Shown: positions 671 to 17,262 of the stretch, one piece after another | Layout of the letters: each line of letters begins with the position of its first letter | How positions within the stretch are numbered: position 1 is the first letter of the stretch | Origin: a virus | Reading direction: 5' to 3' (one strand) | IMG/VR virus record: IMGVR_UViG_3300020442_001390 | Coordinates: 1 to 25,495 of that record | Length of the DNA: 25,495 nt | Position numbers and translations under genes: made by a program | The notes under the pieces: generated by a model | The model's input: only the letters and a program-made list of their open reading frames with translations | Database searches by the model: none | What the model was told of the DNA's origin: nothing

Positions 671-1089
671 GCGACGACTTAGTAAAAAAACTACTAGAGT
701 CACTAACACCTGATCAGAAGGCTAGTTTAGTTGACTCGCTTTTAAATGATAATGTAAAACGGGACGTTCCCGAAGTGAAAGAGGAAACACCTCCCTCTAA
801 TCCTAGTTCTAATGTGAACGAGGACTTTACTGTAACAAGAGGTGACGATTTTCTTGAGAAAAGGAAAACTCCGGTGAGAGCCAGCAAAAATCAGTGGGTT
901 GACAATGGTGAAGATAGAGACCCAGACTTTGACCCCGTTAAGTTTGAACGTATGGGTAAAACTTCTAGAAATAGAGGTAAAGCAAAAAAGAGAACGCTTG
1001 AGTGTCATGTCTGCGGCAAGACTTTTAGTATGAACGCAAACTTAGTACACGGTGAATATATTAGATGCAATCGTTGCACAGGAAGGTAA
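667..1089 (+). CDS. Phage zinc-ribbon protein
   Basis: This 140-residue protein starts in an ATGA overlap with the previous stop. The N-terminal 30 residues form a helix with leucine spacing. Residues 35-60 are a proline/serine/acidic linker. Residues 66-82 contain a basic to aromatic segment ending in NQWVDNG. The C-terminus is a zinc ribbon, C113-x2-C116 and C134-x2-C137. I recall small phage proteins with the same plan of a VRASKNQWVD-like stretch followed by a terminal C2-C2 ribbon near replication genes, but their function is not settled. Nucleic-acid or partner binding is likely. The stop lies one base before the helicase start, and the AGGAAGG at its end is the helicase ribosome binding site. 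Confidence 0.85.
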   Translation: MSDDLVKKLLESLTPDQKASLVDSLLNDNVKRDVPEVKEETPPSNPSSNVNEDFTVTRGDDFLEKRKTPVRASKNQWVDNGEDRDPDFDPVKFERMGKTSRNRGKAKKRTLECHVCGKTFSMNANLVHGEYIRCNRCTGR

Positions 1090-1090
1090 A

Positions 1091-2533
1091 ATGGATTCCC
1101 AGCTTTGCGACACTGGTGCAGAGCGGGCAGTACTTGCAGGACTGTTCGCATATGGACTAGAGTCTTATGTTGAAATAAATGATTTTATTACGCACAGCAG
1201 TTTTGCAAACCGTAATAATCAAGTCATATATAAATGTATTGAAAAGATTTTAGAAGGTGACGCAGTTGTTGACATCCCTGCTATACTTTCTGCGGCAGAG
1301 CAATTAAATCTTTCCGAGACCGTCCAAAGCAAGCAAGAGCTTGATTATATCAAGAACTTGATGGACTATCCTGTAAAGAAGCAAAACGTTTTACACTTTG
1401 CGGCACAAGTAAAAAAGTTTGAGTTCGCACGTAACGCAAAACGTATTGCAAAGAAAATAGATTCTGATATCGACTCTATCGTAGGTGATGAGAGCATTGA
1501 CGATATTATTAATCTAGTTGAGTCTCCTCTCATGGATTTTTTGAGAGACGATGAGACAGGTCAAAAACCAGAGATGTTAGGTGACGACCTAGATGAGTAC
1601 GTAGAGTTTTTAATTGAAAACAAGTGTGATCAAATAGGACTGTCTAGTGGATTTCCCAGATTTGATACCGTCATTGGTGGTGGCTTACGTCGTAAGTGTG
1701 TGGACCTTGTATCCGCAAGGCCCGGAGTGGGCAAGTCTGTCTTTGCAGATAACGTTGCTCTCCATAACGCTCGCTTGGGAATTCCAGTACTTATGCTTGA
1801 TACTGAGATGAGTAAAGAGGATCACCTAAATAGAATTCTATCCAATATTAGCGGTGTGCCTATCGGAGATATTTCTACAGGCAAGTTTGCAGAAGACGAC
1901 GAAAAGTTGATAGCAGTCCGTAATGCTATGGATGAGATTAGGGACATACCCTATACATACGTTAGCGTTGCCGGTGCTCCTTTTGAGACCATCCTAAATA
2001 CAATTAAGAGATGGATTCTGCGTGAAGTGGGGCAGGATGAAAATGGTAAGACTAATGAATGTCTTGTAGTTTACGATTATCTTAAACTTATGTCATCATC
2101 TGGTATCACAAATAATATCCAAGAGTATCAGGCGTTAGGGTTTCAAATTACAAACCTGCACAATCTTGCAGTAAAGTATGATTTCCCTTGTCTGTCATTT
2201 GTACAGCTAAACAGAGATGGTATAACCAAAGAGTCTACGGACGCTGTGAGCGGATCTGACAGGCTTATCTGGCTGTGTACATCATTCTCCATATTTAAAT
2301 TAAAGTCGGCTGAGGAGCTTGCAGAGGACGGTCCAAACGCAGGCAACAGAAAAGTAGTAACGCTAAAAGCGAGACATGGTGCTGGACTTATGGATGGTAA
2401 TTATATTAACATGAATATGGTGGGTGAGCACGCACAGTTGCTTGAACTTAGAACTAGAGATGAGGTCAGGTCTTCTCCAGATGGAGATGTTATTGAAGGA
2501 TCTGACGCACCTTTTGATTTGGAGGAAGAATAA
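1091..2533 (+). CDS. dnaB: Replicative DNA helicase, DnaB family
   Basis: This is a 480-residue hexameric 5'-3' helicase that unwinds DNA at the phage fork and recruits primase. The first ~110 residues match the DnaB N-terminal helical domain, opening with AERAVLAGLF. A linker leads to a RecA-type motor: Walker A ARPGVGKS at 209-216, an acidic motif LDTEMS shortly after, Walker B VVYDYLKL with D329, a FVQLNRDG segment as in DnaB motif 4, and RHGAG near the arginine-finger position. The C-terminus is an acidic tail. I chose ATG 1091 because AGGAAGG precedes it and the upstream gene ends at 1089; a GTG at 1052 would overlap the zinc ribbon. Length is close to bacterial DnaB. A primase gene lies downstream. 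Confidence 0.96.
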   Translation: MDSQLCDTGAERAVLAGLFAYGLESYVEINDFITHSSFANRNNQVIYKCIEKILEGDAVVDIPAILSAAEQLNLSETVQSKQELDYIKNLMDYPVKKQNVLHFAAQVKKFEFARNAKRIAKKIDSDIDSIVGDESIDDIINLVESPLMDFLRDDETGQKPEMLGDDLDEYVEFLIENKCDQIGLSSGFPRFDTVIGGGLRRKCVDLVSARPGVGKSVFADNVALHNARLGIPVLMLDTEMSKEDHLNRILSNISGVPIGDISTGKFAEDDEKLIAVRNAMDEIRDIPYTYVSVAGAPFETILNTIKRWILREVGQDENGKTNECLVVYDYLKLMSSSGITNNIQEYQALGFQITNLHNLAVKYDFPCLSFVQLNRDGITKESTDAVSGSDRLIWLCTSFSIFKLKSAEELAEDGPNAGNRKVVTLKARHGAGLMDGNYINMNMVGEHAQLLELRTRDEVRSSPDGDVIEGSDAPFDLEEE

Positions 2534-2733: not shown

Positions 2734-2894
2734 TGTTAGCGTCTTGGGCAATAGGTATTTCTACTTTATGTTATGTAGTATGCGGTATAGACAACTTGAG
2801 GCAAAAGGATTTTCCTCATGCTTTAGTGTGGTTTTCTTACGCAGCAGCGAACTCGGGATTTTTATGGTATGAGTTTACGAAAAGCCAAGGGTAA
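2730..2894 (+). CDS. Small two-helix membrane protein
   Basis: The ATG at 2730 overlaps the previous stop as ATGATG, after AGAAAGG. The product is 54 residues with two hydrophobic segments, about residues 2-17 and 28-46, joined by a charged loop (DNLRQKDFPHA). The pattern of a short loop followed by HALVWFSYAAANSGF resembles small holin-sized membrane proteins common in phage genomes; I know of no assigned function. Its end overlaps the primase start by 26 bases. A longer in-frame start at 2688 would run through the upstream gene and is not preferred. Confidence 0.7.
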   Translation: MMLASWAIGISTLCYVVCGIDNLRQKDFPHALVWFSYAAANSGFLWYEFTKSQG

Positions 2895-3894
2895 AACCTT
2901 AGACCTCAACAAGGTTAAGGAAATAATTTTTGACGATATTGATCTACTTTTAGACAGTTTTGGTTTGGAGTATGAGCAAGTAGCGGATAATATATTCATG
3001 AGGTGTCCTATCCACGAGGGTAGCGATAACCCACAGGGTCTTTCTATCTCACTAAGCAGGCAGGCTTGGAGATGCTGGACTAGAGGGTGTCACGAGCATT
3101 ACAATACCGACATCTTTGGTTTTGTAAAAGGTGCGTTACATACTGACTCGTTTTCGGAAGCTCTAAGTTATATATGCAAATTGTATGATGTTGGTAATGC
3201 CAAAACGGAGAAGAAGGTAGAAGAACGTCGTGAGGATGTTTTTGGAGACTTAGTAAAAACGATATCAACAAAGACAGATGTCACAAATATTCAACCCAGT
3301 TTTGAACCTGTAGATACACTGAGTAACTCTCCATACTTTGAAAGCAGAGGCTTTGATAAGAAGACGTTACAATACTTTGGCGTGAAGGATTGTGCTGATA
3401 GATCGTGTCCAATGCGATTCCGTTCTATCATACCTATTAACTTTTGCGGACATCAAGTTGGATATATAGCTCGATCAACTAGAGAATGGCTACAGCCTAA
3501 GTATCTATTCTCTAATGGCATAAAGAAGACAGACTACCTATATAACTATGACAATGCAATTTCAGCACTACAGGAATCCAAATGCCTTTTCTTAGTAGAA
3601 GGACAAGGTGATGTCTGGAAACTGTGGGAGTGTGGTGTCAGGAATGTTGTTGGACTATTTGGCAAAGACATCTCTGGCGAACAGAGAAAGTTGCTGTTAA
3701 AGAGCGGCGTTAGCACGCTGATCGTACTTACTGACAACGATCAAGCGGGCAGAGAATCAAAGATAAAAATTAAAAGGGATTTGAGCAGATTATTTACACT
3801 GATGTTCCCCAAGATGAGTACTAAGGACTTAGGCGATATGTCAACAGAATCTGTACAAGAAAAGATACTTAAAAACCTACAAGGATATTTTTAG
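2869..3894 (+). CDS. dnaG: DNA primase, DnaG type, zinc finger plus TOPRIM
   Basis: This 341-residue primase makes RNA primers for lagging-strand synthesis. A CHC2-type zinc finger is formed by C46, H49, C69 and C74, with the usual RCPIHEG start and WRCW before the third ligand. The catalytic TOPRIM domain carries the glutamate in LVEGQGD (E244) and the acidic pair in LTDNDQAG (D289, D291). It is shorter than bacterial DnaG (about 580 residues) and has no obvious C-terminal helicase-binding domain, as in many phage primases. Its start lies inside the preceding small gene and the ribosome site is weak, which suggests translational coupling. The helicase gene two loci upstream is its likely partner. 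Confidence 0.93.
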   Translation: MSLRKAKGKTLDLNKVKEIIFDDIDLLLDSFGLEYEQVADNIFMRCPIHEGSDNPQGLSISLSRQAWRCWTRGCHEHYNTDIFGFVKGALHTDSFSEALSYICKLYDVGNAKTEKKVEERREDVFGDLVKTISTKTDVTNIQPSFEPVDTLSNSPYFESRGFDKKTLQYFGVKDCADRSCPMRFRSIIPINFCGHQVGYIARSTREWLQPKYLFSNGIKKTDYLYNYDNAISALQESKCLFLVEGQGDVWKLWECGVRNVVGLFGKDISGEQRKLLLKSGVSTLIVLTDNDQAGRESKIKIKRDLSRLFTLMFPKMSTKDLGDMSTESVQEKILKNLQGYF

Positions 3895-4677
3895 ATGATT
3901 ATTGGAATTTCTGGGAGAAAGCAGGCTGGCAAAAACACAACAGCTAACATCCTACACGGCATTGTTCTCAAAAAGCAGGGTCTAATCAAAGACTGGAACA
4001 TTGGTGGTAAAGGAGAACTAAATATTCTGACCGATAACGCTTCTGGCGAGGAGGGCTGGGGAGTATTTGATATTGCTAGAAAAGACGGTGCATTTATAGA
4101 ATATGCAGAGCATAGCATGTGGCCGTATGTAAAACTGTACAGCTTTGCTGATGAGCTTAAACGTATCTGTGTTGAGCTTTTTAATATTCCATACGAGTGT
4201 GTTTACGGTACTGATGAGCAGAAAAATCAACCGCAAGAACATTTGCTCTGGGATAATATGCCCAAAACATTCAGCTCTAAAATGAGAAAAGTATTTACTG
4301 AAGCTCCTGACGCACTTAGGTCGTGGGAGTGGAAGCAGGGGCCAATGACTGCTCGTGAGTTTATGCAGTTCTTTGGTACAGATATTTGCCGTAATGCCTT
4401 CCAGCCCATCTGGGTAAACGCATGTCTAAACAAAATTAAAAGAGAAAAATCACAACTGGCAATTATAGCAGACGTGAGATTTGGTAATGAAGCTAAGGCT
4501 ATTGAGGAAGCTGGTGGTAAACTAGTTAGACTCACTAGAAATATTTACAATGACGATCATTCAAGCGAAGTAGCTCTGGATGACTACCCCTTCACAAATT
4601 ATATTGACAATAGCGATACGAACATAGATGACCTGACGGTGAAGGTAAAGAAGTTTTACAATCACTTAAAGGAATAA
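3895..4677 (+). CDS. Deoxynucleoside monophosphate kinase
   Basis: This 260-residue enzyme is predicted to phosphorylate dNMPs to dNDPs for phage DNA synthesis. The N-terminus is a P-loop, GRKQAGKNT at residues 7-15, directly after strand MIIGIS, as in T4 gp1-type dNMP kinases (241 residues). Residues ~195-220 contain ADVRFGNEAKAIEEAGGKLV followed by LTR, a segment characteristic of this family that places an arginine near the phosphate site. A central YECVYGTDEQKN region and WEWKQGPMTAREF fit the family's substrate-binding lid region. ATG 3895 follows the primase stop directly with no gap. Context among replication genes supports the call. Nucleotide specificity cannot be read from sequence. 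Confidence 0.88.
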   Translation: MIIGISGRKQAGKNTTANILHGIVLKKQGLIKDWNIGGKGELNILTDNASGEEGWGVFDIARKDGAFIEYAEHSMWPYVKLYSFADELKRICVELFNIPYECVYGTDEQKNQPQEHLLWDNMPKTFSSKMRKVFTEAPDALRSWEWKQGPMTAREFMQFFGTDICRNAFQPIWVNACLNKIKREKSQLAIIADVRFGNEAKAIEEAGGKLVRLTRNIYNDDHSSEVALDDYPFTNYIDNSDTNIDDLTVKVKKFYNHLKE

Positions 4678-4678
4678 T

Positions 4679-5716
4679 ATGTTAGTTACATACGTAAGAA
4701 GTTCTAGTTATAATAATTATGCGTATTGCCAAATGCAATACTTTATTACCTATGTATTAGGTCATCAGTCTGATAGCGGCAAGAAAGCCGACATGGGAAC
4801 TATGGCTCACAAGGTGATGGAGATCCTAGCTGGACTGAAGAAGTTTCAGCAGGATAACTCACGCAAAAAGTATCTTGTTGTAGACGACGATGCCGCTGGT
4901 AAAATTAGAATACACAAAGATAGACTATATACAAATGAGTTAGTAGATGAACTTGTAGATATAGCTATAGATTGCTACGCTAAAAACTCCAAGCACAAAT
5001 TCTTCCCTGCTGATAGAAAAGCTGTATCTGAAACTGTCTGGACTTTTCTTACGCATAGCGATGGACAGTTTGACCCCAGACTTAGGAATATCCATCATCC
5101 AGAGCCGCACTTTGACATCCCTATCGAAGAAGATTGGGCTAAGTTTGAGTATGAAATAAACGGCGAAAAGGTAGAGGGGCAGCTTGCAATCAAGGGTACA
5201 ATCGACCTTGTGACGCTACTCAACGACGATACCATCGAGGTAATCGACTGGAAGACTGGTCGCCGCATGGATTGGGCTACTGGAGAAGTCAAAGACTACA
5301 AGAAACTAGAAAATGACGCACAATTACTTCTTTATTTCTACGCTATATCTAAATTATATCCTGAATATCCTAATAGAATTATGAGTATATTTTTCTATAA
5401 AGATAAAGATGGCGAGCCAGATCCCAAGCCTTTTTCCCTAATGTTTGACAAGAGCGACGAAGCTAGATTTCTAGAGATGTTAAAGGGTAGAGTGGAAGAA
5501 ATCAGACAAAATGTCAACCCTAGACCATTAGATTCCACGAGAAAGCACTGGAAATGCAGATATCTGTGTCATTATTGCAAGAATAATTGGCCGGGAACAG
5601 AGGAAAATATGTGTATATATATAGAGAAGCACCTAAAGGAACACGGTATGGAGGAAACAGTTAAAAAATGCACACGTCCGGGCTTTAACATAGGCTTTTA
5701 TGAAGCTCCGGGCTAA
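4679..5716 (+). CDS. Cas4/RecB-like PD-(D/E)XK exonuclease with probable Fe-S cluster
   Basis: This 345-residue nuclease probably degrades or resects DNA in phage recombination or host DNA turnover. An N-terminal helix carries C17 in YCQMQYF. H44 lies in MGTMAHKVME, matching the RecB-type motif I histidine. The nuclease core has D176 in IKGTIDLV and then E187-VI-D190-W-K192-TG, the standard D...(D/E)xK site. Near the C-terminus are C293, C297, C300 and C312. One early cysteine plus a C-terminal cluster is the layout of the iron-sulfur staple in Cas4 and AddB proteins. No cas gene or CRISPR array is nearby, so a phage recombination role is more likely than adaptation. It starts two bases after the kinase gene. 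Confidence 0.88.
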   Translation: MLVTYVRSSSYNNYAYCQMQYFITYVLGHQSDSGKKADMGTMAHKVMEILAGLKKFQQDNSRKKYLVVDDDAAGKIRIHKDRLYTNELVDELVDIAIDCYAKNSKHKFFPADRKAVSETVWTFLTHSDGQFDPRLRNIHHPEPHFDIPIEEDWAKFEYEINGEKVEGQLAIKGTIDLVTLLNDDTIEVIDWKTGRRMDWATGEVKDYKKLENDAQLLLYFYAISKLYPEYPNRIMSIFFYKDKDGEPDPKPFSLMFDKSDEARFLEMLKGRVEEIRQNVNPRPLDSTRKHWKCRYLCHYCKNNWPGTEENMCIYIEKHLKEHGMEETVKKCTRPGFNIGFYEAPG

Positions 5717-5729
5717 TCGGAGAATAGCA

Positions 5730-5894
5730 ATGAAAGAGTTTATGTTAGGGTTTTTTGTGGCATCATCGTTAATGTTAGCTGCTTACATCGTCTGGGAGAA
5801 CAAAAGGCACGTTCCAGTCGTCATACAACAAGTTCCAGTGCCTGTGCAACAGATGGCAAAGCCACCTATAGATATAGAAAGATGGGAAACATAA
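5730..5894 (+). CDS. Small single-pass membrane protein with proline/valine tail
   Basis: The chosen ATG at 5730 follows CGGAGAA and gives 54 residues; an in-frame ATG at 5700 lies inside the nuclease gene. Residues 4-22 are a hydrophobic helix (FMLGFFVASSLMLAAYIVW) preceded by one lysine and followed by ENKRH. Positive charge after the helix would keep that side cytoplasmic by the positive-inside rule, although the short tail could also be periplasmic. The tail VPVVIQQVPVPVQQM is low-complexity and proline-rich. The stop overlaps the DUF1501 start, so the two are coupled. A spanin-like or anchor role is conceivable but not supported by any motif. Confidence 0.7.
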   Translation: MKEFMLGFFVASSLMLAAYIVWENKRHVPVVIQQVPVPVQQMAKPPIDIERWET

Positions 5895-7123
5895 TGAGAA
5901 GAAGAGATTTTCTGAGACTTGGAGCTGCCACTTTTGCAGTAGGAAATGTGGAAGCTAGTTATGCACAAGCTGCGGACGCAGACAAGACTGCCGTACTTTT
6001 TGTGTTTCTGAATGGTGGAGCGTCACATATTGAGACTTTCAATCCTATTCCCCTAGCTCCCGCCGATAGACGATCTGTAAGCGGTGCTATCAAAACCAAT
6101 GTAGAAGGCATCCAACTTGGTGGATATTTTAAAGAATTAGCAAAACGCACAGATAAGATAACAATTCCAAGAGCTTTTGGTCATAGAGATCAAAACCACG
6201 CCAGTTCTGTACATTGGGTAGTGACTGGCGAGGCAAACTTTGGTGCAGGCACCAGCTCAAAATGGCCTAGTCACGGTAGCATGATGAGTAGATATCATGG
6301 ACCAAATACAGAAGACGGGTTGCCTCATTACGTGAAGATTGGCGGATTCCAACACGATGACGCTGCGTGGCTAGGTGGTAAGTATATGGGGTTTGACGCA
6401 ACTAAAGAAGGTCGCAAAGACCTGCAACTGTTAGGCTCAAGCGAAGCATTTAGAAAAAGGCTTTTTGCTCTAAGCGTTATTGATCGCGGATTTGCCGCTA
6501 AAGATCAACAACTAGCTAAAGATTGGTCAGCATTACGAGAACAATCAGTTGACATTATTCTAGGTAATGCCTCTAAGTCATTTAGGGTTGAAGAAGATAA
6601 AGACTACGACTCTTTTAAAGACCATTCTTTTGGTTCCGATGCTCTCACAGCAATAAGGCTCTTGGAAGCAGGCTCAAGATACGTAACTTTGACTATTGGT
6701 GGTTGGGATATGCACAGCAACATTAATACCAGTCTTTCCAATACGCAGGTTGTGTTAGATACTTACCTTGCTAAAATTATGGATACGCTAGAAGCTAGAG
6801 GTATGTACGAACGAGTTATGCTGATTGTCACATCTGAATTTGGTAGAACACCAAAAGTAAACGGCAACGCAGGTAGAGATCATTTTGGGAAAATTGCCCC
6901 GCTAATGATTAGCTGCGGAAGCTATGAAATGGGACGAACTGTAGGCACCACCACTGCAAATGCTGACGATTTTGACCAAGGCAGAACAACTCCAGAAGAT
7001 TTATCATGGACTATTTTTGATCATCTTAAGATGGAAAAGAAAACACGCTACACTGCTACAGACGGTCGTCCACACTACATTGTTAAAGAAGACTCCAAGA
7101 ACATTCTTACGGATATAGCCTAA
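5894..7123 (+). CDS. DUF1501 family protein with twin-arginine signal peptide
   Basis: This 409-residue protein belongs to DUF1501, which sits in the alkaline-phosphatase/sulfatase-like superfamily and is very abundant in planctomycetes. Residues 2-10, RRRDFLRLG, are a textbook Tat motif. A short weakly hydrophobic stretch and an A-x-A-like site (ASYAQA, about 21-26) follow, so the product should be exported folded by the host Tat system. Family landmarks include LNGGASHIETF at 40-49, HRDQNHASSVHW from 97, GGWDMH with D272/H274, SEFGRTPK with E315 and GRDHFGK with D329/H330. It lacks the usual D-x-F-D after GG-x-S-H, having E-T-F-N. Substrate is unknown. ATG 5882 is an alternative start. It overlaps both neighbours by one base. 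Confidence 0.9.
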   Translation: MRRRDFLRLGAATFAVGNVEASYAQAADADKTAVLFVFLNGGASHIETFNPIPLAPADRRSVSGAIKTNVEGIQLGGYFKELAKRTDKITIPRAFGHRDQNHASSVHWVVTGEANFGAGTSSKWPSHGSMMSRYHGPNTEDGLPHYVKIGGFQHDDAAWLGGKYMGFDATKEGRKDLQLLGSSEAFRKRLFALSVIDRGFAAKDQQLAKDWSALREQSVDIILGNASKSFRVEEDKDYDSFKDHSFGSDALTAIRLLEAGSRYVTLTIGGWDMHSNINTSLSNTQVVLDTYLAKIMDTLEARGMYERVMLIVTSEFGRTPKVNGNAGRDHFGKIAPLMISCGSYEMGRTVGTTTANADDFDQGRTTPEDLSWTIFDHLKMEKKTRYTATDGRPHYIVKEDSKNILTDIA

Positions 7124-7788
7124 TGAACTATATAGTTGGTGCAGATAAAGTTGTTAAAGAACAGCTAAGAAGTATTAAGTATACAGATAATCCTAAGACA
7201 TGGGACGTATCTGACAAAATTACTATTGCTTGGGACGATATTCTTCCAGACCCTCCTTCTAACGATAGCGATGTCACAAAAAAGGAGTTAGTATATTTAT
7301 CTGAACTAACTAGGAATAGATCTAATTCACAGGTTGAGCTGATTAAGTTGGTTGATAAAGAACCAAATGACCTATATCACAAAACATTGAAAAGGCTAAA
7401 CCTAGAGTTCCCACAAGACATCTTTGATAAATCTTGGAACATATTAAAAAACATAATTAAAAACTTAAAACATCAACACAATAGACCAAGACCATACCAG
7501 ATATCTGATAAGTATGGGATTGCAATAAATTTGCTTGATTCAAAAACAGCACAAACCCCTGCGTATCCCTCTGGTCATACAGCTTACGCAGCTTTAGGTG
7601 CTTACATATTAGCCGCAAAATATCCGGCACACTCAGAACACTTCTTTGACAAAGTGTCTACTGCTGGTATGGCTAGAATGTTAATGGGCGTACACTATCC
7701 TTCTGACAACGAAGCATCTATGATTATTACTGGTGCTGTGTGGGAAGACATTCGATACAAACTGTTTCCAGAACTACCAAACTTTTAG
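7123..7788 (+). CDS. PAP2-family phosphatase / vanadium haloperoxidase-like protein
   Basis: This 221-residue protein carries all three motifs of the PAP2 acid phosphatase and vanadium haloperoxidase superfamily with exact spacing. They are K116-x6-R123-P124, then P149-S-G-H152, then R185-x5-H191-x3-D195 (alanine replaces the usual serine before R185). In this fold a histidine forms the phospho- or vanadate-linked centre, so it is probably a phosphomonoesterase or pyrophosphatase. There is no signal peptide and no clear multi-helix membrane core, so it looks soluble, like class A acid phosphatases or haloperoxidases rather than lipid phosphatases. It starts on the DUF1501 stop (TAATG), which implies co-translation with that exported protein. 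The substrate cannot be deduced. Confidence 0.88.
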   Translation: MNYIVGADKVVKEQLRSIKYTDNPKTWDVSDKITIAWDDILPDPPSNDSDVTKKELVYLSELTRNRSNSQVELIKLVDKEPNDLYHKTLKRLNLEFPQDIFDKSWNILKNIIKNLKHQHNRPRPYQISDKYGIAINLLDSKTAQTPAYPSGHTAYAALGAYILAAKYPAHSEHFFDKVSTAGMARMLMGVHYPSDNEASMIITGAVWEDIRYKLFPELPNF

Positions 7789-7797
7789 GAGATAAAA

Positions 7798-8901
7798 ATG
7801 CCACTGCCATCAAGAAAAGACGGCGAAGACCGAAAAGAGTTTATGAGTCGCTGTATGAGCGACCCCAAGGTTAGAGAAGAATACAAAGACAATAGTCAAC
7901 GAGTAGCTGTATGCATCTCTAAAGCCACTGAGGGTTTAGACCATATTCAGGCAGCAGACATGAAAATGTACTTTGAGTCTTATGGATCTGAAGAAGAACT
8001 AACTGCTGACAACTATCATGTACCTTCAGAAGAAGACTATGTCTCTGCTGACGAAGTTTACTACGAAGAGTCTGAAGTAGAGGAGCTGGACTTATCTGTA
8101 GCTAAACCCGGACTCTGGGAAAACATCAGACGCAAGAAAGAGCGTGAAGGTAAAAACTATAAACCTGCTAAAACTGAAAAGGAAGGCAGACCAACTCAAG
8201 AGCAGCTCAAGCGTGCTCAGTCCGAAGAGTATCTTACGTATGCCGAGTTTGCAGAGGCTGACAAGCCGGGACCAAAAGATCCTCGCAGAACTCCTGCACC
8301 TAAAAAAGATCAGAAAAAAGGTTCTAAAAAGAACAAGCCAGATAGTGCAAAGGATGGTAAGGGTAAAATTACCTTCAGTAAAGAAGTGACCGCACAACTG
8401 TCTGCAAAAGTCAAAGAGCACAACGCTAAAGGCAAAGGCTCTAAAGCAACTCTGGGTATGCTCAAGGCTGTTTATCGTCGTGGAGCTGGAGCGTTTTCTA
8501 CAAGCCATGCACCAAAGATGAGTCGTCACGGATGGGCTATCGCTAGAGTCAACGCATTTCTTAAACTACTAAGAAGCGGAAGACCTTCTAATCCTAATTA
8601 CACAACCGACAACGACTTGCTGCCCAAAGGTCATCCACGAGCTGGCAAATCAAAGGCCGCTGAATATCAAGGACGCAAGGTTCAGTTGGGTAAACCTTTT
8701 AGAACCCCAAAAGGGCCAAAGAAATTTAGCGTTTATGTTAAAAATCCAAAGGGAAATGTTGTTAAGGTGAACTTTGGTGATCCTAACATGAAGATTAAAA
8801 AGAATATCCCCGGCAGAAGAAAGAATTTCCGTGCTCGCCACAACTGCGACAATCCCGGACCACGCCACAAGGCACGTTACTGGAGTTGCAGAGCGTGGTA
8901 G
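7798..8901 (+). CDS. Composite lysine-rich phage protein, DUF5824-like, probably virion-associated
   Basis: This 367-residue protein follows AGGAGA and appears to be built of modules. Residues 1-45 have the MPLP...EFMSRCMSDP...QRVAVCIS pattern (C19, C39) seen at the start of many phage head-region proteins. Residues 50-115 are very acidic (many E, D, Y). Residues 115-190 are lysine/proline-rich and probably disordered. Residues about 190-280 match a phage module I recall as DUF5824, with KATLGMLKAVYRRGAGAFS and NDLLPKGHPRAG. Residues 300-367 are a basic C-terminal module with NVVKVNFGDPNM and the ending RARHNCDNPGPRHKARYWSC then RAW. The C-terminal module is frequent in phage structural or prohead proteins as far as I recall. 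Role is inferred only; a packaged basic scaffold or DNA-binding virion protein is plausible. Confidence 0.8.
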   Translation: MPLPSRKDGEDRKEFMSRCMSDPKVREEYKDNSQRVAVCISKATEGLDHIQAADMKMYFESYGSEEELTADNYHVPSEEDYVSADEVYYEESEVEELDLSVAKPGLWENIRRKKEREGKNYKPAKTEKEGRPTQEQLKRAQSEEYLTYAEFAEADKPGPKDPRRTPAPKKDQKKGSKKNKPDSAKDGKGKITFSKEVTAQLSAKVKEHNAKGKGSKATLGMLKAVYRRGAGAFSTSHAPKMSRHGWAIARVNAFLKLLRSGRPSNPNYTTDNDLLPKGHPRAGKSKAAEYQGRKVQLGKPFRTPKGPKKFSVYVKNPKGNVVKVNFGDPNMKIKKNIPGRRKNFRARHNCDNPGPRHKARYWSCRAW

Positions 8902-8909
8902 AGGAAGAT

Positions 8910-9062
8910 ATGCTTGACTGCCCATTCTGCGGAGGCCGTCCCCAATCTGAAGCACTTCTAACTATACAAATGTATTGGTATGAGTGTGCTGATTGTGGGG
9001 CGTCCTCTGCGTCGGGGGACGATTTGCAAGAAGCACAAGACAAGTGGAATCAAAGAACTTGA
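8910..9062 (+). CDS. Lar-like restriction-alleviation zinc ribbon
   Basis: This short frame encodes 50 residues. It begins MLDCPFCGGRP, has YECADCGA in the middle and ends EAQDKWNQRT. That gives C4-x2-C7-G-G and C26-x2-C29-G-A, then EA...WN-x-R. This is the signature of the Lar restriction-alleviation family (lambdoid Rac prophage protein that modulates type I restriction) and related phage zinc ribbons. It starts at ATG 8910 behind AGAGGAAG. A GTG at 8895 could extend it into the previous gene. It closes the accessory operon: the region after it carries a new promoter. An anti-restriction function is possible, but many family members have never been tested. Confidence 0.8.
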   Translation: MLDCPFCGGRPQSEALLTIQMYWYECADCGASSASGDDLQEAQDKWNQRT

Positions 9063-9081
9063 ACTAAATTGAAAAAACCAC

Positions 9082-9110
9082 TTGCATAATAACAAGCTCT
9101 AGACTATAAT
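9082..9110 (+). promoter_or_regulatory. Sigma70-like promoter of the polymerase operon
   Basis: TTGCAT (9082-9087), a 17-base spacer and a perfect TATAAT (9105-9110) lie in the only sizeable gap of this part of the window. Transcription should begin near 9117 and give a leader of roughly 90 bases before the polymerase gene. The motif ACTATAAT is shared with the promoter at 13078. Nothing else was recognised in the 142-base gap from 9063 to 9204, apart from a leader hairpin. Confidence 0.75.
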
Positions 9111-9135
9111 AGTGTAGATCAGGGTTCACAAACTC

Positions 9136-9153
9136 ATCTTCTAAAATGAAGAT
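9136..9153 (+). other. Small hairpin in the polymerase mRNA leader
   Basis: ATCTTC, the loop TAAAAT and GAAGAT form a 6-base perfect stem. It lies inside the predicted leader between the promoter and the polymerase start at 9205. It is AT-rich and has no T-run after it, so it is not a terminator. It may be meaningless or may influence translation or mRNA stability. Confidence 0.3.
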
Positions 9154-9204
9154 TCATTGTTTCATCCTGACGTATGTTGAATATTTAATATTGAAGGATT
9201 TATT

Positions 9205-10833
9205 ATGGACTGGTTCCCTCTTTGTAACCTTACACATTATTCTCTGCAAAAAGGTTTCTCTAAACCAAAACAGCTCGCAGAGAAGTGCCGCACTAATAAT
9301 TTCAAAGCGTGCGGTATCGCAGACTACAAAAGTATTTCTGGAGCTGTATCTTTTTATAAGGCATGTGTCGCACAAGACATCAAGCCAATCATCGGCTGCT
9401 CTTTCGACAACTTCACGCTCTTTGCCAAGAATAAAGATGGATGGTTTGAGTTAATTCAAATCGTATCTTCTCTCTCAGACGATGGCGAACCTGATACAAA
9501 ACTTATATTATCGCTATCTAAAAATAATAATCTGATCTGTGTAGCGGAAGACGAGTCAGTATCTCCTGTGCGTGGAGAGGATTTCTACGAGAAAACTGCA
9601 TCGTTCCATACTAGCTACTATACAGAAAAAGAGCACGCAGAGCTACACCGAATCATGCTATGCTCTAGTATGAAAACTACTTTGTCTAAAGTAAATAAGG
9701 CTATTACAAATGGTCAAACTGTGGACAATCAAGTTTTCTTTGAGTCAAATGATTTCTTCTTGCGTGACAAGTTATCTGCAACGGAGCTATTGATTGACGG
9801 CAAAGACCCAGAAAGTTTTGTAGACATCTTCAGTAAGTGCAAGAACTATAATATCCTCAGTCAACCTATGCTGCCTACGTTCGATACCCCTAACGGTCAG
9901 ACCGAAAAGGATTATCTTAGAGAACTGGCTAGAGCAGGATGGAAGAAGATGCTTGATGACAAGATTACTGATGAAGATGAAAGAAAGGTCTATGGAGATA
10001 GATTTAGAAAAGAGTATGATGTTATCGAGAAGGCTAATCTATTTGGTTACTTCCTAATTGTGTGGGATATTCTAAACCATTGTAGAGATCAAGGATGGAT
10101 GGTAGGGCCGGGACGAGGGTCTGCCGCAGGATGTCTAATTTCTTATCTTATAGGTATTACGCAGATTGACCCCATCGAGTTTGATTTACTATTTGAGCGA
10201 TTTTACAACGAGGGTCGTAACACAGAGGATCACATCTCCCTTCCTGATATTGACATGGATGTGCCGGGAGACAAGCGTGACGAGATTATCGCACACCTAA
10301 AGTATAAGTATGGGTCAGATAATGTTAGTCAGATGCTGACGTTTGGTAGACTGCAAGGCAGGAGTGCTATTAAAGAAGTCCTCCGAGTAAATAACGCTTG
10401 CGGATTTGGAGAGATGAATGAAATTACGAAATATATTCCTGACGAAGCAGCTATTTCTGACCAACTAGCAGAAATGGATGAAGAAGATCGGTCAATCATC
10501 AAGTGGGCGTTGCTGAATAACGCTGACGACCTACGTGATTACTGTTATGTAAACGAGGATGGGGAGCTAAAAGGCGACTTCTCCGAGTTCTTCAAGCAGG
10601 CTATAGATATAGAGGGTACGTTTAAGACACAGGGAAAACATGCTGCTGGAGTTGTTATCTCCGCAGAACCACTTTTTAAAGTATGTCCCATGGTGAACCA
10701 AAGGAGTGGCGGTGAAAAAATCGCTGGATTGGAAATGGCAGACCTAGAAGCTCTGGGCCATGTCAAGTTCGATGTCCTTGGTATCAACTTGCTGGACAAA
10801 CTTATGAAAATCAAGGAGCTTATTAATGAATAG
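9205..10833 (+). CDS. dnaE: DNA polymerase III alpha subunit, N-terminal half (PHP and palm)
   Basis: This 542-residue protein is the front half of a bacterial-type replicative polymerase. Residues 1-100 are a PHP domain in which the metal-binding H-x-H is C7-N-L9 and the TDH triad is A39-D-Y41, so it is probably inactive. The palm holds VGPGRGSAAG (300-309), PDIDMD (347-352, catalytic aspartates) and KFDVLG with D523, the third catalytic aspartate. The protein stops 20 residues later, before the fingers domain, which is encoded at 11512-13077. Start ATG 9205 follows GAAGGA. The end overlaps the exonuclease gene by eight bases. Without the second half it should not polymerise. Confidence 0.94.
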   Translation: MDWFPLCNLTHYSLQKGFSKPKQLAEKCRTNNFKACGIADYKSISGAVSFYKACVAQDIKPIIGCSFDNFTLFAKNKDGWFELIQIVSSLSDDGEPDTKLILSLSKNNNLICVAEDESVSPVRGEDFYEKTASFHTSYYTEKEHAELHRIMLCSSMKTTLSKVNKAITNGQTVDNQVFFESNDFFLRDKLSATELLIDGKDPESFVDIFSKCKNYNILSQPMLPTFDTPNGQTEKDYLRELARAGWKKMLDDKITDEDERKVYGDRFRKEYDVIEKANLFGYFLIVWDILNHCRDQGWMVGPGRGSAAGCLISYLIGITQIDPIEFDLLFERFYNEGRNTEDHISLPDIDMDVPGDKRDEIIAHLKYKYGSDNVSQMLTFGRLQGRSAIKEVLRVNNACGFGEMNEITKYIPDEAAISDQLAEMDEEDRSIIKWALLNNADDLRDYCYVNEDGELKGDFSEFFKQAIDIEGTFKTQGKHAAGVVISAEPLFKVCPMVNQRSGGEKIAGLEMADLEALGHVKFDVLGINLLDKLMKIKELINE

Positions 10834-11500
10834 AGATATTATCGTATTTGACTTTGAAACAGGCGGTAGGAATCCGATGAGGTGTCAACCTACACAGATT
10901 GCTGCTATTGCGTTAGACGGTAGGAACTTTAGGCTAAAAGGAGAGTTCAATAGTCTTATGCGTCCTATCATTGACGACGAGAAAGCAATCGCTGCTGGTG
11001 TTGATCCACTAGAAGAAGGTGCCTTGAAAGTTACTGGACAGACCAGAGCAAAACTTGCTAAAGCACCTTTACCCAAAGGTGTATGGAAGAAGTTCTGCAA
11101 CTTTGTCAATAAATATAATTGGAAAGGTACGTCATACTTTGCACCTATTCCTGCCGGTTTTAATATCCTCGGCTATGATATGCATATCGTAAATAGATTA
11201 TGCAAAGAGTATGGACCATATGACGACAAGAGGCAGTGCCAAAAGCTATTTCACCAAATCTACAAGATTGACGTAATGGATGATGTTTGGCTATGGACTG
11301 AAGGAGACCCAGATGTTAAGTCTATTAGTATGGACAGCCTGCGAGAAAGAATGGGTTTGTCTAGCGAGAACGCTCACGACGCTTTGCAAGACGTTAAGGA
11401 CACAGCAAATATCTTTATCAAACTGCAAAAGTCAAGACGAGCAGTCTACAGAAACATGAAATTTGAAAAGGCATTTGCTGACGGAAAACTTTTTGTTTAG
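10826..11500 (+). CDS. dnaQ: DEDDh 3'-5' exonuclease, DnaQ/epsilon-like
   Basis: This 224-residue exonuclease probably proofreads for the split polymerase that flanks it. Exo I is FDFETGG with D9 and E11. Exo II is AGFNILGYDMHIV with D118. Exo III is H184-D-A-L-Q-D189-V, giving the DEDDh set. A segment PVTGQTR-like (LKVTGQTRAKL) between Exo I and II resembles the epsilon-family 'h..hhG.t...l' element. AAGGAG (10813-10818) inside the end of the upstream gene drives ATG 10826, and ATGAATAG provides an eight-base overlap. The stop is 11 bases before the next start. It has no homing-endonuclease or intein motif. No clamp-binding motif was identified by eye. Confidence 0.9.
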   Translation: MNRDIIVFDFETGGRNPMRCQPTQIAAIALDGRNFRLKGEFNSLMRPIIDDEKAIAAGVDPLEEGALKVTGQTRAKLAKAPLPKGVWKKFCNFVNKYNWKGTSYFAPIPAGFNILGYDMHIVNRLCKEYGPYDDKRQCQKLFHQIYKIDVMDDVWLWTEGDPDVKSISMDSLRERMGLSSENAHDALQDVKDTANIFIKLQKSRRAVYRNMKFEKAFADGKLFV

Positions 11501-11511
11501 AATTGAGAAAT

Positions 11512-13077
11512 ATGATTGACACTAAAGATGAGAAGTCTTGGAACTTATATAGAGACGGTTTGACCAAAGGCGTATTTCAGCTAGAAAGTAATTTAGGAAG
11601 AGCGTGGTCAAAGAGATTAGCACCAGAAAACCTAGAAGAGTTAGCTGCACTGATTGCACTAATTCGTCCGGGATGTTTGAAAGCTGTTATTGATGGTAAG
11701 TCAATGACGCAAAGATTTGTTGACAGGAAGCATAAGAAAGAAGATGTTACCTATCTGCATGAATCGTTAGAAAGCATACTCCAGCCTACGTATGGAGTAC
11801 TTGTGTACCAAGAGCAAGCTATGCTTATTGCTGTGAAACTCGCTGGCTTCAGCGAGATGGAAGCTGACAACTTGCGTAAAGCAATCGGTAAGAAGAAGGC
11901 TGACCTCATGGCTCAAATCCGTGGTGAGTTCGTAGAGGGGTGTGCTAGAGAAGGTATCGTCAATGAAGAAACCGCCAAAGAGATTTTTGGTTGGATTGAG
12001 AAGTCTTCTAGATACTCTTTTAACAAGTCTCATGCGGTTGCGTATGCTTTAAACTCTTACTGGTCTGCATACTACAAGGCTAACAACACCAAAGAGTTCT
12101 TCTTGTCGTACCTATACTACGCAAATGAAAAGCAAGACCCGCACCAAGAAATCTATGAGCTAGTAAACGAAGCTAAACTATTTAATATTGAAGTAAAGGT
12201 TCCTAAACTAAGTGCCTTTTCAACTAAGTTCTCTATTAAGTCAGATAGTATCTGCTTTGGTGTTAAGGATATTAAAAGCCTAACAGGTGTCACGGGCGAC
12301 AAAGTAATCGCAGCTATTTCGGAAACGTCGGAAGAAATAGATAAGTCCCCACAAGATTTTACTTGGATGGATATTCTAATTTACCTAGCCCCCAAGATCA
12401 ACTCTACCGCTTTTAAGGCTCTTGCGTCTATAGGTTTCTTTTCCACAAAAGCTAGTGGTGTCACAAGAAACCAAGCATTGTACGAGTACCTAATATTTAG
12501 AGAGTTGACCAAGGCGGAAGTCAAGTGGGTTACATCTCACTACCAAAGTAGAAAATGGACGAAGCTGCAAGACTGTTTTAGAGAACTATGTCCCACCAAA
12601 AAGAATGGTGGAGGGTGTAGTAATATAAACAGAAGTCAGATTATCGAGAATGAAATTGAGATGCTAAAAAATCCACCTTACGACCTGTCCGACGATCCCG
12701 CTTGGATTATCGAGCAAGAAACTAAGATGTTGGGTTGCCCAGTTTCTCTTTCTAAAATTGACGCTGTGGACACATCTATTGCCAACACCACCTGCAAAGA
12801 CATTATGGATGGCAAGAAGGGTAAAGATATCTGTATCGTTGCGAACCTACAAAGAGTAGCTAATCACAAGATTAACAAGCAAGGAAGCTCACAAAAGGGT
12901 AGAACTATGTCATTTCTTACAATCGAAGATGCGACATGCTCCCTTGACAGCGTTATCGTTTTCCCAGACGCTAGAGATAAATATCAGTTTATCCTGTATG
13001 AAGGCAACAACGTAATGCTCTGCGGTGAAGTCGGCAAAGACGGATCATTTATTGTTGACAAAATTCACGAAATTTAA
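11512..13077 (+). CDS. dnaE: DNA polymerase III alpha subunit, C-terminal half (fingers to OB fold)
   Basis: This 521-residue protein continues the polymerase. It opens with DTKDEKSWNLYRDGLTKGVF then QLES, which matches the stretch just after the palm in intact DnaE. It then has ALIALIRPG, the YQEQAM motif near residue 99, DNLRKAIGKKK and FNKSHAVAYA near 170, all fingers-domain hallmarks. A helix-hairpin-helix/beta-binding region follows and an OB fold occupies roughly residues 440-520. The tau-binding C-terminus of E. coli DnaE seems absent. Both halves total about 1,063 residues against 1,160 in E. coli. ATG 11512 has a weak GAGAAA upstream; TTG 11503 is the alternative. No intein residues are present at either break. 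Confidence 0.93.
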   Translation: MIDTKDEKSWNLYRDGLTKGVFQLESNLGRAWSKRLAPENLEELAALIALIRPGCLKAVIDGKSMTQRFVDRKHKKEDVTYLHESLESILQPTYGVLVYQEQAMLIAVKLAGFSEMEADNLRKAIGKKKADLMAQIRGEFVEGCAREGIVNEETAKEIFGWIEKSSRYSFNKSHAVAYALNSYWSAYYKANNTKEFFLSYLYYANEKQDPHQEIYELVNEAKLFNIEVKVPKLSAFSTKFSIKSDSICFGVKDIKSLTGVTGDKVIAAISETSEEIDKSPQDFTWMDILIYLAPKINSTAFKALASIGFFSTKASGVTRNQALYEYLIFRELTKAEVKWVTSHYQSRKWTKLQDCFRELCPTKKNGGGCSNINRSQIIENEIEMLKNPPYDLSDDPAWIIEQETKMLGCPVSLSKIDAVDTSIANTTCKDIMDGKKGKDICIVANLQRVANHKINKQGSSQKGRTMSFLTIEDATCSLDSVIVFPDARDKYQFILYEGNNVMLCGEVGKDGSFIVDKIHEI

Positions 13078-13106
13078 TTGGAATAATTGACCACTACTAC
13101 TATAAT
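13078..13106 (+). promoter_or_regulatory. Sigma70-like promoter of ssb and the glycan cluster
   Basis: TTGGAA (13078-13083), a 17-base spacer and TATAAT (13101-13106) lie between the polymerase stop and the ssb start. A five-base inverted repeat, TACTA (13098-13102) and TAGTA (13108-13112), straddles the -10 element. A second reading, TTGACC (13087-13092), 18 bases, TATAAC (13111-13116), is also possible. The leader would be only about 20 bases. Confidence 0.65.
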
Positions 13107-13129
13107 GTAGTATAACTAAGGAACACTAT

Positions 13130-13447
13130 ATGAATAATTGCACGTTTACGGGATACCTATATGATGATCCCGAGATTGACATAGATGAAGATAGCGGCTC
13201 GGAATATTGCGAGTTTACCCTGACCGTCTACGAATACGTCAGAAACAAAAGGGGCGAAAAGAAGAGATACCCCACCTTCCTTAGACTTAGAGCTTGGGAC
13301 AGCGGAGGGAGAACGATTGCCAAACTAGGAAAGTCTGGCATGAAGATGACAGTTACCGCTTCAGCAAAAAACATGCAGCCTGAAGAGGATACGCTGATTA
13401 CGTTTAGAGTAAACCAATTCGACTTTGGATGTTTGGACAAGGATTAA
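13130..13447 (+). CDS. ssb: Single-stranded DNA-binding protein, OB fold
   Basis: This 105-residue protein reads as a compact bacterial-type SSB that coats single-stranded DNA at the fork. It opens with NNCTFTGYLYDDPE, matching the family start (strand, G-x-L, D-P-E), continues with CEFTLTVYE and RGEKKRYPTFLRLRAWDSGG, the core OB strands with the F-x-R-x-x-A-W pattern, and then AKLGKSGMKMTVTASA. It lacks the glycine-rich linker and the acidic DDDIPF-type tip that recruit partners in cellular SSB, although the last residues are acidic. AAGGAA precedes ATG 13130. It has its own promoter and is followed within one base by the first glycosyltransferase gene. Confidence 0.85.
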   Translation: MNNCTFTGYLYDDPEIDIDEDSGSEYCEFTLTVYEYVRNKRGEKKRYPTFLRLRAWDSGGRTIAKLGKSGMKMTVTASAKNMQPEEDTLITFRVNQFDFGCLDKD

Positions 13448-13448
13448 A

Positions 13449-15125
13449 ATGAGAAAGAAAAGAATTCTATTTTGTAGTGAAGCTACTTTTCTAAATACAG
13501 GATACGCAACTTACACTAGGGAAATCTTAAATTATTTACACAGTACAGGTAAATATGAAATTGCAGAGATGTCTGCCTACGGTCAGAGGAATGATCCTAG
13601 AGCTAAAGACATTCCTTGGGGTTACTTTGGCATCGCACCTAATACAGACTGTGAGCCAAAGGCTACTCAAGAAGAGTTAGATGCGTACCACTCGTCCGGC
13701 TCTAACCAGTTTGGAGAATGGATTTTTGAGCATGTATGCTTGGAATTTATGCCAGATATTGTATGCGACATCCGAGACTTCTGGATGCTAGAATTTGCAG
13801 AGCGTTCTCCATTCAGAAACTACTTCAAGTGGTGTATCATGCCCACCGTAGACGCTAGACCACAAGCTAGACAGTGGGTTGCTTCATACGCTAACGCAGA
13901 CGCCTGCTTGACATATTCTGACTGGGCAGGAACAGTGCTCGCAGATCAATCTGGTGGGCAAATTAACTATCTCGGCAGTGCTCCTCCATCTGCCCATCCA
14001 GCATATCATCCCGTAGAAGATAAGAAAGCACACAGGAAAAAATTTGGCTTAGATCCAGATAGCATGATTATTGGTACGGTCATGAGAAATCAGAGACGAA
14101 AACTGTACCCTGACCTGTTTGAGGCTTTCCGAGAGTTTCTGGATAAGTCAGAAAATAAAAACGTATACTTGTACTGCCACACTTCCTATCCAGACCTTGG
14201 TTGGGATATACCAGAGTTGTTGCAGCAGCACAATCTATCTTCACACGTACTATTTACTTACATTTGTCCAGAGACGAAGAAGCCCTTCCCGTCACTATTT
14301 AAAGGTGCTGTTATTCAATCGCCGTTTACCGGCAAGTGGGGATCAACACTTTCTAATGTAAAGAATGGTGTTTCTTATGAAGACCTATCTTCTATCGTTA
14401 ATCTGTTCGATCTTTATACTCAGTATGCAAACTGCGAAGGATTCGGCCTGCCGTATGTAGAAGCTGCTGCCTGTGGCGTGCCTGTCTGCGGAACTGACTA
14501 TTCTGCTATGGAAAGTGAGATTCGCAAGCTAGAAGGGTATCCGATTCAACCTGCCGCACTGTATAAAGAACTAGAGACTGGGTGTTTACGTGCAGTACCA
14601 GACAACCACAAGGCTGCTCAGTATTTCCTAGACTTTTTTGCTATGTCTGAAGAAGAACGTGCAGAGCTTGGCAAACGCACGAGAGAAAACTTTGAGAAGC
14701 ATTTCCAGTGGCATATGAGCGGCAAGAAGTGGGAGGATTATTTCGACAGCGTGGAACTTCCAGACATTACGCAAACGTGGTGCTCTCCTCCTAATATTTC
14801 TCAGCCAGCACCTAAACCAGATTTGCCACCGAACGCAAACGCCCTAGACCTGTCCAGATTTCTCATTACAGAAGTGCTGAGAGATCCATCCAGACTAAAT
14901 ACTTATTTTGAGTCTAGGCTGACTAGAGACTTGACATATAGAAGTGCGACATCCTCTACTGGCGGCATGTATTTCAATGAGTCTTCCGCTGCATTTGACG
15001 GAATAAACACAAGATCTAGCTTTGATTTCAATATTGCGTATGATAATATGACACATCAAAGAAATAGAATTAACCAGTGGGAACAAAAGAGAGTTGAAAT
15101 TATGCAACAAAGGGGGCTAATGTAA
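13449..15125 (+). CDS. GT-B glycosyltransferase (GT4-like) with degenerate zinc-ribbon insert and extra C-terminal domain
   Basis: This 558-residue protein probably transfers a sugar from a nucleotide donor. The GT-B C-terminal donor site is clear: CEGFGLPYVEAAACGVPV, with the E330-x7-E338 pair. The N-terminus opens with a Rossmann-like ILFCSEATFLNTGYATY segment. Between the two domains, residues 273-296 look like a zinc ribbon that has lost ligands: C273-x2-T276 and S291-x2-T294 followed by G-K. After residue ~455 there is a proline-rich linker and a ~90-residue C-terminal extension with DLSRFLITEVLRD and a basic end, absent from ordinary GT4 enzymes. ATG 13449 is one base after the ssb stop; an upstream TTG at 13425 would overlap ssb. 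Acceptor unknown. Confidence 0.86.
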   Translation: MRKKRILFCSEATFLNTGYATYTREILNYLHSTGKYEIAEMSAYGQRNDPRAKDIPWGYFGIAPNTDCEPKATQEELDAYHSSGSNQFGEWIFEHVCLEFMPDIVCDIRDFWMLEFAERSPFRNYFKWCIMPTVDARPQARQWVASYANADACLTYSDWAGTVLADQSGGQINYLGSAPPSAHPAYHPVEDKKAHRKKFGLDPDSMIIGTVMRNQRRKLYPDLFEAFREFLDKSENKNVYLYCHTSYPDLGWDIPELLQQHNLSSHVLFTYICPETKKPFPSLFKGAVIQSPFTGKWGSTLSNVKNGVSYEDLSSIVNLFDLYTQYANCEGFGLPYVEAAACGVPVCGTDYSAMESEIRKLEGYPIQPAALYKELETGCLRAVPDNHKAAQYFLDFFAMSEEERAELGKRTRENFEKHFQWHMSGKKWEDYFDSVELPDITQTWCSPPNISQPAPKPDLPPNANALDLSRFLITEVLRDPSRLNTYFESRLTRDLTYRSATSSTGGMYFNESSAAFDGINTRSSFDFNIAYDNMTHQRNRINQWEQKRVEIMQQRGLM

Positions 15126-15126
15126 T

Positions 15127-16260
15127 ATGAAAGTTCTCTACATAGGACACTACAGAGAGTTTGGCGGCTGGGCAGAAGCCGCAAAAGGTTACATACTAGC
15201 CTTAGACGCTGCTGGCATAGATGTGGTGTGCAGAAATGTCACACTAACAAAAGATAGAGAAATATCCGGTAGACTAAAAGAGCTAGAGGATAAGGATACA
15301 GACGGTTGTGATGTTTGTATTCAACACGTACTACCTCATCATATATGTGGGTCTAATAAATTTAAAAAGAATATTGCTTTCTTGGCCACAGAGTCGGTTA
15401 GTATTAAGCATCTTCCTTGGTTTGAATATTTAAAGCAAGTTGATTCCCTTTGGGTTCCAAATGATACATCTAAAGAATTGTTAGAATCTGATAATCTAGG
15501 GATTCCCATCTCCGTTGTGCCTCATACTTTTGACACAGCAAAGTACAAGAAGAAGTACAGGGATCTAGGCATTCCACAGACAGAAGGCAATTTTACATTC
15601 TATTATATTGGTGATCTAAACGATAGAAAGAACCTAGAATGTATTATAACTTGCTTCCATAGCGAGTTTGACATCGCTGAAAATGCTCAACTAGTAATTA
15701 AAGTCAATAAGTTTGGCACGCCCCCAGAGCAATTACATGCCATAGTAGAGGATAAGATTCAAAAGGTCAAATCTAAACTACGGATGTACGGCGATCTTAC
15801 TAGGTACAAAAAAGACGTTATCATACCTAACGAGGTAGACAATGACGCTTTGTGTGCCATACACCAACAGCTAGACTGTTTTCTGTGTCCGTCGCATGGT
15901 GAGGCTTGGTCGATCCCTTCTTTTGATGCTATGGCATTTGGCAGCACACCTATTTGCAGCAACTTTGGTGGTCCTCCTCAGTTTATTACTGAAGACGATA
16001 GGACTGGATTCTGTGCAGATGGTGTTTTCACGACTTGCAAATGTAGTGATGCGGCGTTCCCAGATATGTTTACTGGGCGTGAATATTGGTTTACTCCGTG
16101 TGAAATGCAAATCAGAAAACAGATGAGAAAATATTTTGAAGCGTATAACGATAATCCAATTAAGTATGGCGTGGAAGCTAAGGCTGCTGGCCTAGCACAG
16201 GCTGAGAAATTCTCATATGAGGCGGTTGGACAACTAATGAAGGAGATCCTAAATGACTAA
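15127..16260 (+). CDS. GT-B glycosyltransferase (GT4-like)
   Basis: This 377-residue protein opens with strand KVLYIGHY and a GWAEAAKGYILAL helix as in acceptor-binding domains of GT4 enzymes. LWVPNDTSKELL and ISVVPHTFDT match the interdomain region. FYYIGDLNDRKNLECII is the usual start of the donor domain. The donor site is SHGEAWSIPSFDAMAFGSTP, where E259 is followed at +8 by D267 instead of the more common glutamate. A cysteine-containing stretch CKCSDAAF lies near residue 305. It probably transfers a hexose in the glycan pathway. ATG 15127 lies one base after the previous stop and the end overlaps the next gene by eight bases. Confidence 0.86.
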   Translation: MKVLYIGHYREFGGWAEAAKGYILALDAAGIDVVCRNVTLTKDREISGRLKELEDKDTDGCDVCIQHVLPHHICGSNKFKKNIAFLATESVSIKHLPWFEYLKQVDSLWVPNDTSKELLESDNLGIPISVVPHTFDTAKYKKKYRDLGIPQTEGNFTFYYIGDLNDRKNLECIITCFHSEFDIAENAQLVIKVNKFGTPPEQLHAIVEDKIQKVKSKLRMYGDLTRYKKDVIIPNEVDNDALCAIHQQLDCFLCPSHGEAWSIPSFDAMAFGSTPICSNFGGPPQFITEDDRTGFCADGVFTTCKCSDAAFPDMFTGREYWFTPCEMQIRKQMRKYFEAYNDNPIKYGVEAKAAGLAQAEKFSYEAVGQLMKEILND

Positions 16261-17260: not shown

Positions 17261-17262
17261 AT

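Follow-up and report, generated by a model that had tools for sequence, protein, structure and literature searches.

A phage DNA polymerase III alpha subunit encoded in two genes, with a DEDDh exonuclease gene at the palm-fingers break

Introduction

Split phage polymerases are already known. Here we analysed the virus record IMGVR_UViG_3300020442_001390 over its whole 25,495-base stretch (the window), in which the gene for DnaE, the alpha subunit of DNA polymerase III, is divided in two and a gene for a DEDDh exonuclease lies between the halves. In the T4-related Aeromonas phages 25 and 44RR, the family B polymerase (PolB) is divided into gp43A and gp43B, and the phage 25 products co-purify and are active (Petrov et al. 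2010; PMC2988022). As in the window, a phage replicative polymerase occupies two genes with a nuclease gene or a spacer between them; unlike the window, the polymerase belongs to family B, is split at another site, and has a homing endonuclease gene or an untranslated spacer, with no conserved DEDDh exonuclease, in the gap. A two-gene DnaE has also been described for the Microbacterium cluster EF phages (PMC7302621), a likeness taken from the text of that paper. The Microbacterium phages Krampusvirus Tedro (gp56/57) and TinyMiny (gp61-63) likewise have a two-gene DnaE, but their break lies between PHP and palm, and the gap contains either nothing or one small gene, whereas that of the window holds the exonuclease. 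Cellulophaga and Tenacibaculum Cbastvirus carry two adjacent DnaE genes, but the break is inside the palm, ahead of the PDID motif, with nothing between, and in Alicyclobacillus MMB025 the break is in the fingers and is accompanied by an endonuclease gene. The isolated Rossellomorea phage phiT1 (gp20/gp19/gp18; PV767480) has its DnaE divided at the palm-fingers linker, as in the window, but it belongs to a distant lineage (~28-39% identity) and has a 49-amino-acid open reading frame (ORF) without known function, and no exonuclease, between the halves. Cyanobacterial split DnaE and 'fractured genes' (Dassa et al. 2009, cited in PMC3653736) also combine split genes with nuclease genes in the breaks, as far as the citing text describes them; their parts are rejoined by split inteins, whereas the break in the window has none.

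A C-family polymerase acting with a DEDDh exonuclease is familiar from PolC and from the alpha-epsilon core. In PolC the exonuclease is inserted within the PHP domain of a single chain, unlike in the window, where a gene of its own, placed at the palm-fingers break, encodes it. Our literature search, which covered few subscription journals, found no phage DnaE that is split around an exonuclease gene, and a prior description is possible. What is new here is the site, the age, the many relatives sharing one break, the resident single-copy DEDDh exonuclease and a joined relative.

Results and Discussion

Genes were identified by ORF calling and by searches of Pfam, PHROGs and NCBIfam, which were all concordant. 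The three genes of the split locus are as follows.

9205..10833, plus strand: DnaE N-half, 542 amino acids, with degenerate PHP, palm and thumb (PF02811 + PF07733); carries D348, D350 and D523; its C-terminal end is the palm-fingers linker.
10826..11500, plus strand: DEDDh 3'-5' exonuclease, 224 amino acids, probable proofreading subunit (PF00929 RNase_T; phrog_192, polymerase exonuclease subunit); overlaps the N-half by 8 base pairs (bp).
11512..13077, plus strand: DnaE C-half, 521 amino acids, with fingers, HhH/clamp-type region and OB domain (PF17657); lacks the tau-binding C-terminal domain.

A first-pass annotation, made from the letters of the window without database searches, had taken the outer two genes for the halves of one DnaE, and the profile searches bore out its coordinates, domains and order: homology covers the whole PHP-palm-thumb-fingers core of the C family, spread over the two genes. 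It had placed the break in the linker between palm and fingers, where structure-profile matches also put it, at about residues 574-585 of E. coli DnaE. On the 1190 positions of phrog_405, the main stretch of the N-half covers 244-616 and the C-half covers 625-1054, the C-half resuming where the N-half stops. In the PDB profile matches the N-half ends at T. aquaticus residue 637 and the C-half starts at E. coli DnaE residue 585, and in the Salmonella DnaE alignment the matches stop at ~574 and resume at ~585 (residue numbers worked out by hand). Only ~10 loop residues are absent, and since the break is within this inter-domain loop, no part of the DnaE core is missing.

The catalytic aspartates D348, D350 and D523 (E. 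coli D401, D403 and D555) are all on the N-half, as had been claimed, and are invariant in 57/57 aligned sequences. Each half is predicted by AlphaFold to be well folded by itself, with a mean predicted local distance difference test score of 91.6 for the N-half and 90.7 for the C-half, and Foldseek matched both models to DnaE structures (best E 2e-36 and 5e-21, respectively). The Foldseek query TM-scores (template modelling scores) against DnaE chains were ~0.5-0.77, probably because domains are shifted and the PHP domain is reduced. In the close clade of the window the PHP domain is shortened and has lost its metal motif HxH (LCNLTH; 9205-9260); the motif is retained in the relatives L055 (LHNHSH) and L126 (LHVHSH). 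In the deepest relatives, L126, L138 (at the N-terminus) and L134 (at the ORF start), the C-half is extended ahead of the fingers by some tens of residues that include Cys (CGC).

The coupled layout of the three genes was also confirmed. The N-half and the exonuclease overlap at 10826-10833, eight bases as first read, and their ATG codons are preceded by AAGGA and AAGGAG, respectively. The C-half has its own ATG, an 11-bp spacer from the exonuclease and a weaker GAGAA motif upstream. Its ORF is open from 11503; ATG 11512 is the preferred start, because the relatives L002, L004 and L062 begin at the same Met.

The identification of the gene in the break as a DEDDh exonuclease was upheld, and the residues D9, E11, D118, H184 and D189 are invariant across 11 diverse exonuclease sequences. 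The protein matches the curated DnaQ epsilon family TIGR01406 and its relatives far below their cut-offs, so that it falls outside these families. Its most likely role, judged from gene neighbourhood and the DEDDh residues, is proofreading for the split DnaE. In L149 the exonuclease ORF (8657-9298) is apparently shortened at the 3' end, with a stop near model position 216.

When viral contigs were searched, taking both halves and distant members as queries, 59, 80, 35, 14 and 1 loci were recovered, partly overlapping. By profile mapping, the order N-half, exonuclease, C-half (N-exo-C) was present in 156 loci, repeated contigs included; the other fetched loci are mostly contigs that end before one of the three genes. 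Near-identical N-halves were removed by a simple redundancy filter, on which the counts depend, and N-exo-C was found in 79 of the resulting 80 non-redundant three-gene loci (window included). The same split and gene order, which the first-pass annotation had proposed to seek among phage and metagenome proteins, thus recur in dozens of independent contigs, and this confirms that the split is real and not a product of chance or misassembly. A large group of uncultivated phages keeps a long-lived DnaE split with an exonuclease between the halves.

Identity to the window in profile alignments is 36-88% for the halves and lowest in clades such as L126, L130, L134 and L138. The median ratio of nonsynonymous to synonymous substitution (dN/dS), a simple Nei-Gojobori count over ten less diverged, unsaturated pairs, was 0.053 for the N-half, 0.029 for the exonuclease and 0.045 for the C-half. 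These values indicate strong purifying selection on each of the three genes, the exonuclease being the most constrained. Between the window and its relatives, even the nearest, synonymous sites have reached saturation. A recent exchange of the exonuclease was rejected as an explanation for its 91-97% identity: the proportion of synonymous differences (pS) is at saturation in most pairs (0.74-0.86), and the identity therefore reflects constraint. Lower exonuclease pS, 0.63-0.69, occurs only in L005-L007 and L012, hinting at later exchange in these loci.

Ten relatives of 95-173 kb each have one DnaE palm and one such exonuclease. In these ten genomes family A (PolA) and family B (PolB) polymerases gave no match, and a bacterial-type sliding clamp (PF02768) was not found; with no other recognised polymerase, DNA synthesis would have to rely on the two split genes or on the replicase of the host. 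A candidate second, intact DnaE in L162 (12991-13713) was set aside as an apparent chimera at the contig end, where the start of a phage glycosyltransferase runs into a bacterial-type DnaE.

We consider it highly probable that the locus encodes one C-family replicase made of two separately translated chains, which pair non-covalently across the palm-fingers linker, with the exonuclease as a co-expressed probable proofreader. The N-half and the C-half would be translated separately from an operon-like cluster and would pair at the linker, restoring the DnaE core; the N-half would supply the catalytic palm, and the C-half the fingers, which bind deoxynucleoside triphosphate and template, and the OB domain. 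The DEDDh enzyme, a separate product of the same cluster, would act as proofreader, the part that epsilon plays beside alpha. That the halves are translated separately and have kept their function appears well supported by the constraint, and the pairing of the halves is suggested by precedent: as in split polymerases of the gp43A/B type, both halves are present, adjacent and constrained, and no splicing element is found.

Several points weigh against this reading. The assembly and activity of the halves are predictions from sequence. The 11 bp that separate the exonuclease from the C-half would allow an unusual recoding such as ribosome hopping, although the C-half's own ATG and the gene-sized spacers at other loci run counter to it. 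The exonuclease is not nearest to DnaQ by sequence, and inspection by eye revealed no recognisable clamp motif or epsilon-type tail in it, so that the proofreading role rests on gene context.

The first-pass annotation had suggested that the exonuclease bridges the halves, as an integral subunit tying together a three-part enzyme. Its near-constant place in the break, its single copy and its rank as the most constrained of the three genes would fit such a role. However, the exonuclease adjoins dnaE even where the gene is joined (L055), and gene-sized inserts occur in 51/79 N-exo-C loci. In phiT1 the same-site split has only the 49-amino-acid ORF between the halves, and the exonuclease is therefore not needed as a bridge there. 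In known alpha-epsilon structures epsilon touches the PHP domain, which also counts against bridging; the alpha-epsilon chimera structures 4gx8/4gx9 were among the PDB profile matches of the N-half. A bridging role is thus unlikely. Similarly improbable is an obligate C-family replicase of three subunits, with the exonuclease as the structural partner needed to join the palm and fingers chains, an ancient alternative to the fused PolC and the alpha-epsilon core.

L055, the one exception among the 80 loci, has the exonuclease upstream of a joined dnaE and belongs to the same contig group as L058/L143/L144; in L173, a contig cut at its end, the exonuclease is likewise upstream of the N-half. According to the first-pass annotation, relatives with an intact gene and no exonuclease between would point to a one-off insertion. 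Such a relative does exist in L055, and perhaps in L173, but L055 lies inside the split clade in the N+C, N and C trees and so looks like a later re-joining, not evidence for a one-off insertion. The N-half and C-half trees are broadly congruent. Constraining all split forms to one group cost 21.7 log-likelihood units, with a marginal P of 0.047 in the approximately unbiased (AU) test, which is weakened by the long branches that separate the outgroup. These trees marginally favour a re-joining in L055.

Mobile and accessory genes have repeatedly entered the break, which is an old insertion site. Both junctions are tight (<=40 bp or overlapping) in 28 of the 79 N-exo-C loci; in the other 51, gene-sized inserts stand before the exonuclease only (19 loci), after it only (17) or on both sides (15). 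Among the inserts read are HNH-type endonucleases (phrog_3322 and relatives) in L008, L056, L108 and L138, an NaeI-like restriction endonuclease gene within the L005 dnaE break (7466-7987), FkbM methyltransferases in L012, L044 and L051, and in L021 a protein with a YDVKTK motif to which no family was assigned. L055 has, immediately upstream of its exonuclease, homologues of the insert in L021 (57% identity) and of the small insert in L048 (37%); the block therefore moves with the exonuclease, and it is the N-half that has switched sides relative to the exonuclease. The split may plausibly have begun when a nuclease gene was inserted. In such a hotspot, where nucleases, methyltransferases and other genes have also settled, the exonuclease itself could be a mere passenger that does no proofreading for the split DnaE. 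We find this doubtful: the exonuclease stays constant while the other inserts come and go, its dN/dS is ~0.03, and it remains beside dnaE when the gene is joined.

It is very improbable that the halves are joined by splicing, through a split intein that has degenerated or a trans-splicing intron that escaped recognition. Such splicing would have company, for true inteins are present at other dnaE sites in L055 (split, with a homing endonuclease), L016 and L149, and one in L112 was seen by eye. At the palm-fingers break, however, the stop of the N-half and the start of the C-half lie at the edges of homology, with the ~10 linker residues absent and no space for intein blocks. The first-pass annotation had noted no intein motif there; intein models gave no match on either half of the window, and the same scan was positive in L055, L016 and L149, where it found the N-terminal block in all three and the C-terminal one in two of them, L055 and L016. 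An Rfam scan of 8900-13500 found nothing at E<=1 and no group I or II intron at the break. Given that inteins were detectable in relatives and neither intein nor intron was found at the break, two chains that would reassemble without splicing into an active polymerase are the best reading. These scans indicate that dnaE has been repeatedly invaded by inteins in the relatives while the palm-fingers break is intein-free. A decayed gene or an assembly error, for which the split itself is all that speaks, can be dismissed as contradicted by recurrence in many independent contigs, by dN/dS <0.08 in both halves, by the invariant catalytic residues and by the lack of another recognised polymerase.

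Further breaks were observed in the dnaE genes of relatives. In L055 (8001-12687) and L149 (9473-13109) the fingers are broken at YSFN(R/K)|SHS by a split intein, whose two parts in L055 flank an endonuclease gene that gave NUMOD3 and DUF559-type matches, a fractured-gene arrangement. In L016 (10331-12679) and L149 (9473-11059) a (mini-)intein follows RPG, in frame, within the C-half; that of L016 contains an HNH-like stretch, and L185 has a similar gap. In L112 (4355-6320) the N-half is divided at GPGRG|SAAGC by an apparent split intein, found by eye, without an endonuclease gene between, and dnaE is therefore in three pieces there. The N-half of L054 (4274-6264) is also cut just ahead of PDIDID, the Cbastvirus palm site, apparently without an intein. 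In the Cbastvirus loci L140 (6080-6310) and L142 (6050-6290), the facing DnaE gene ends carry extra residues (KLTLEDGSIVELPEG...EGDDLIKY / MKIINIEQ...KLVN), which resemble a degenerate split intein.

The split dnaE lies in the window with a replication cluster, whose genes and other neighbours were identified by profile matches.

1052..2533, plus strand: DnaB-like replicative helicase, replication cluster.
2869..3894, plus strand: DNA primase (Toprim), replication cluster.
3895..4677, plus strand: deoxynucleoside monophosphate kinase, replication cluster.
4679..5716, plus strand: PD-(D/E)XK nuclease (PDDEXK_1).
13130..13447, plus strand: single-strand DNA-binding protein, also found downstream of the C-half in most relatives.

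A DUF1501 protein followed by a PAP2-type phosphatase occupies 5882-7788, between the PD-(D/E)XK gene and the DnaE N-half. Beside these phage replication genes, 13425-25494 holds a run of glycosyltransferases with an FkbM methyltransferase and a sugar dehydratase. The terminase gave distant matches only (~25% identity), the best being to Bacillus megaterium phages, and no host relative was found among genome contigs.

Conclusion

Phage DnaE genes annotated as 'truncated' may be wrongly labelled. The palm-fingers break is a natural insertion site and offers a ready-made split site for DnaE work, and the locus is a defined system for studying how split polymerases reassemble. The split relatives and the joined L055 form a rare pair for asking whether gene splitting is reversible. 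Together, these results indicate that a C-family replicase can persist over the long term as two chains, with the palm apart from the fingers, across a broad group of uncultivated phages.

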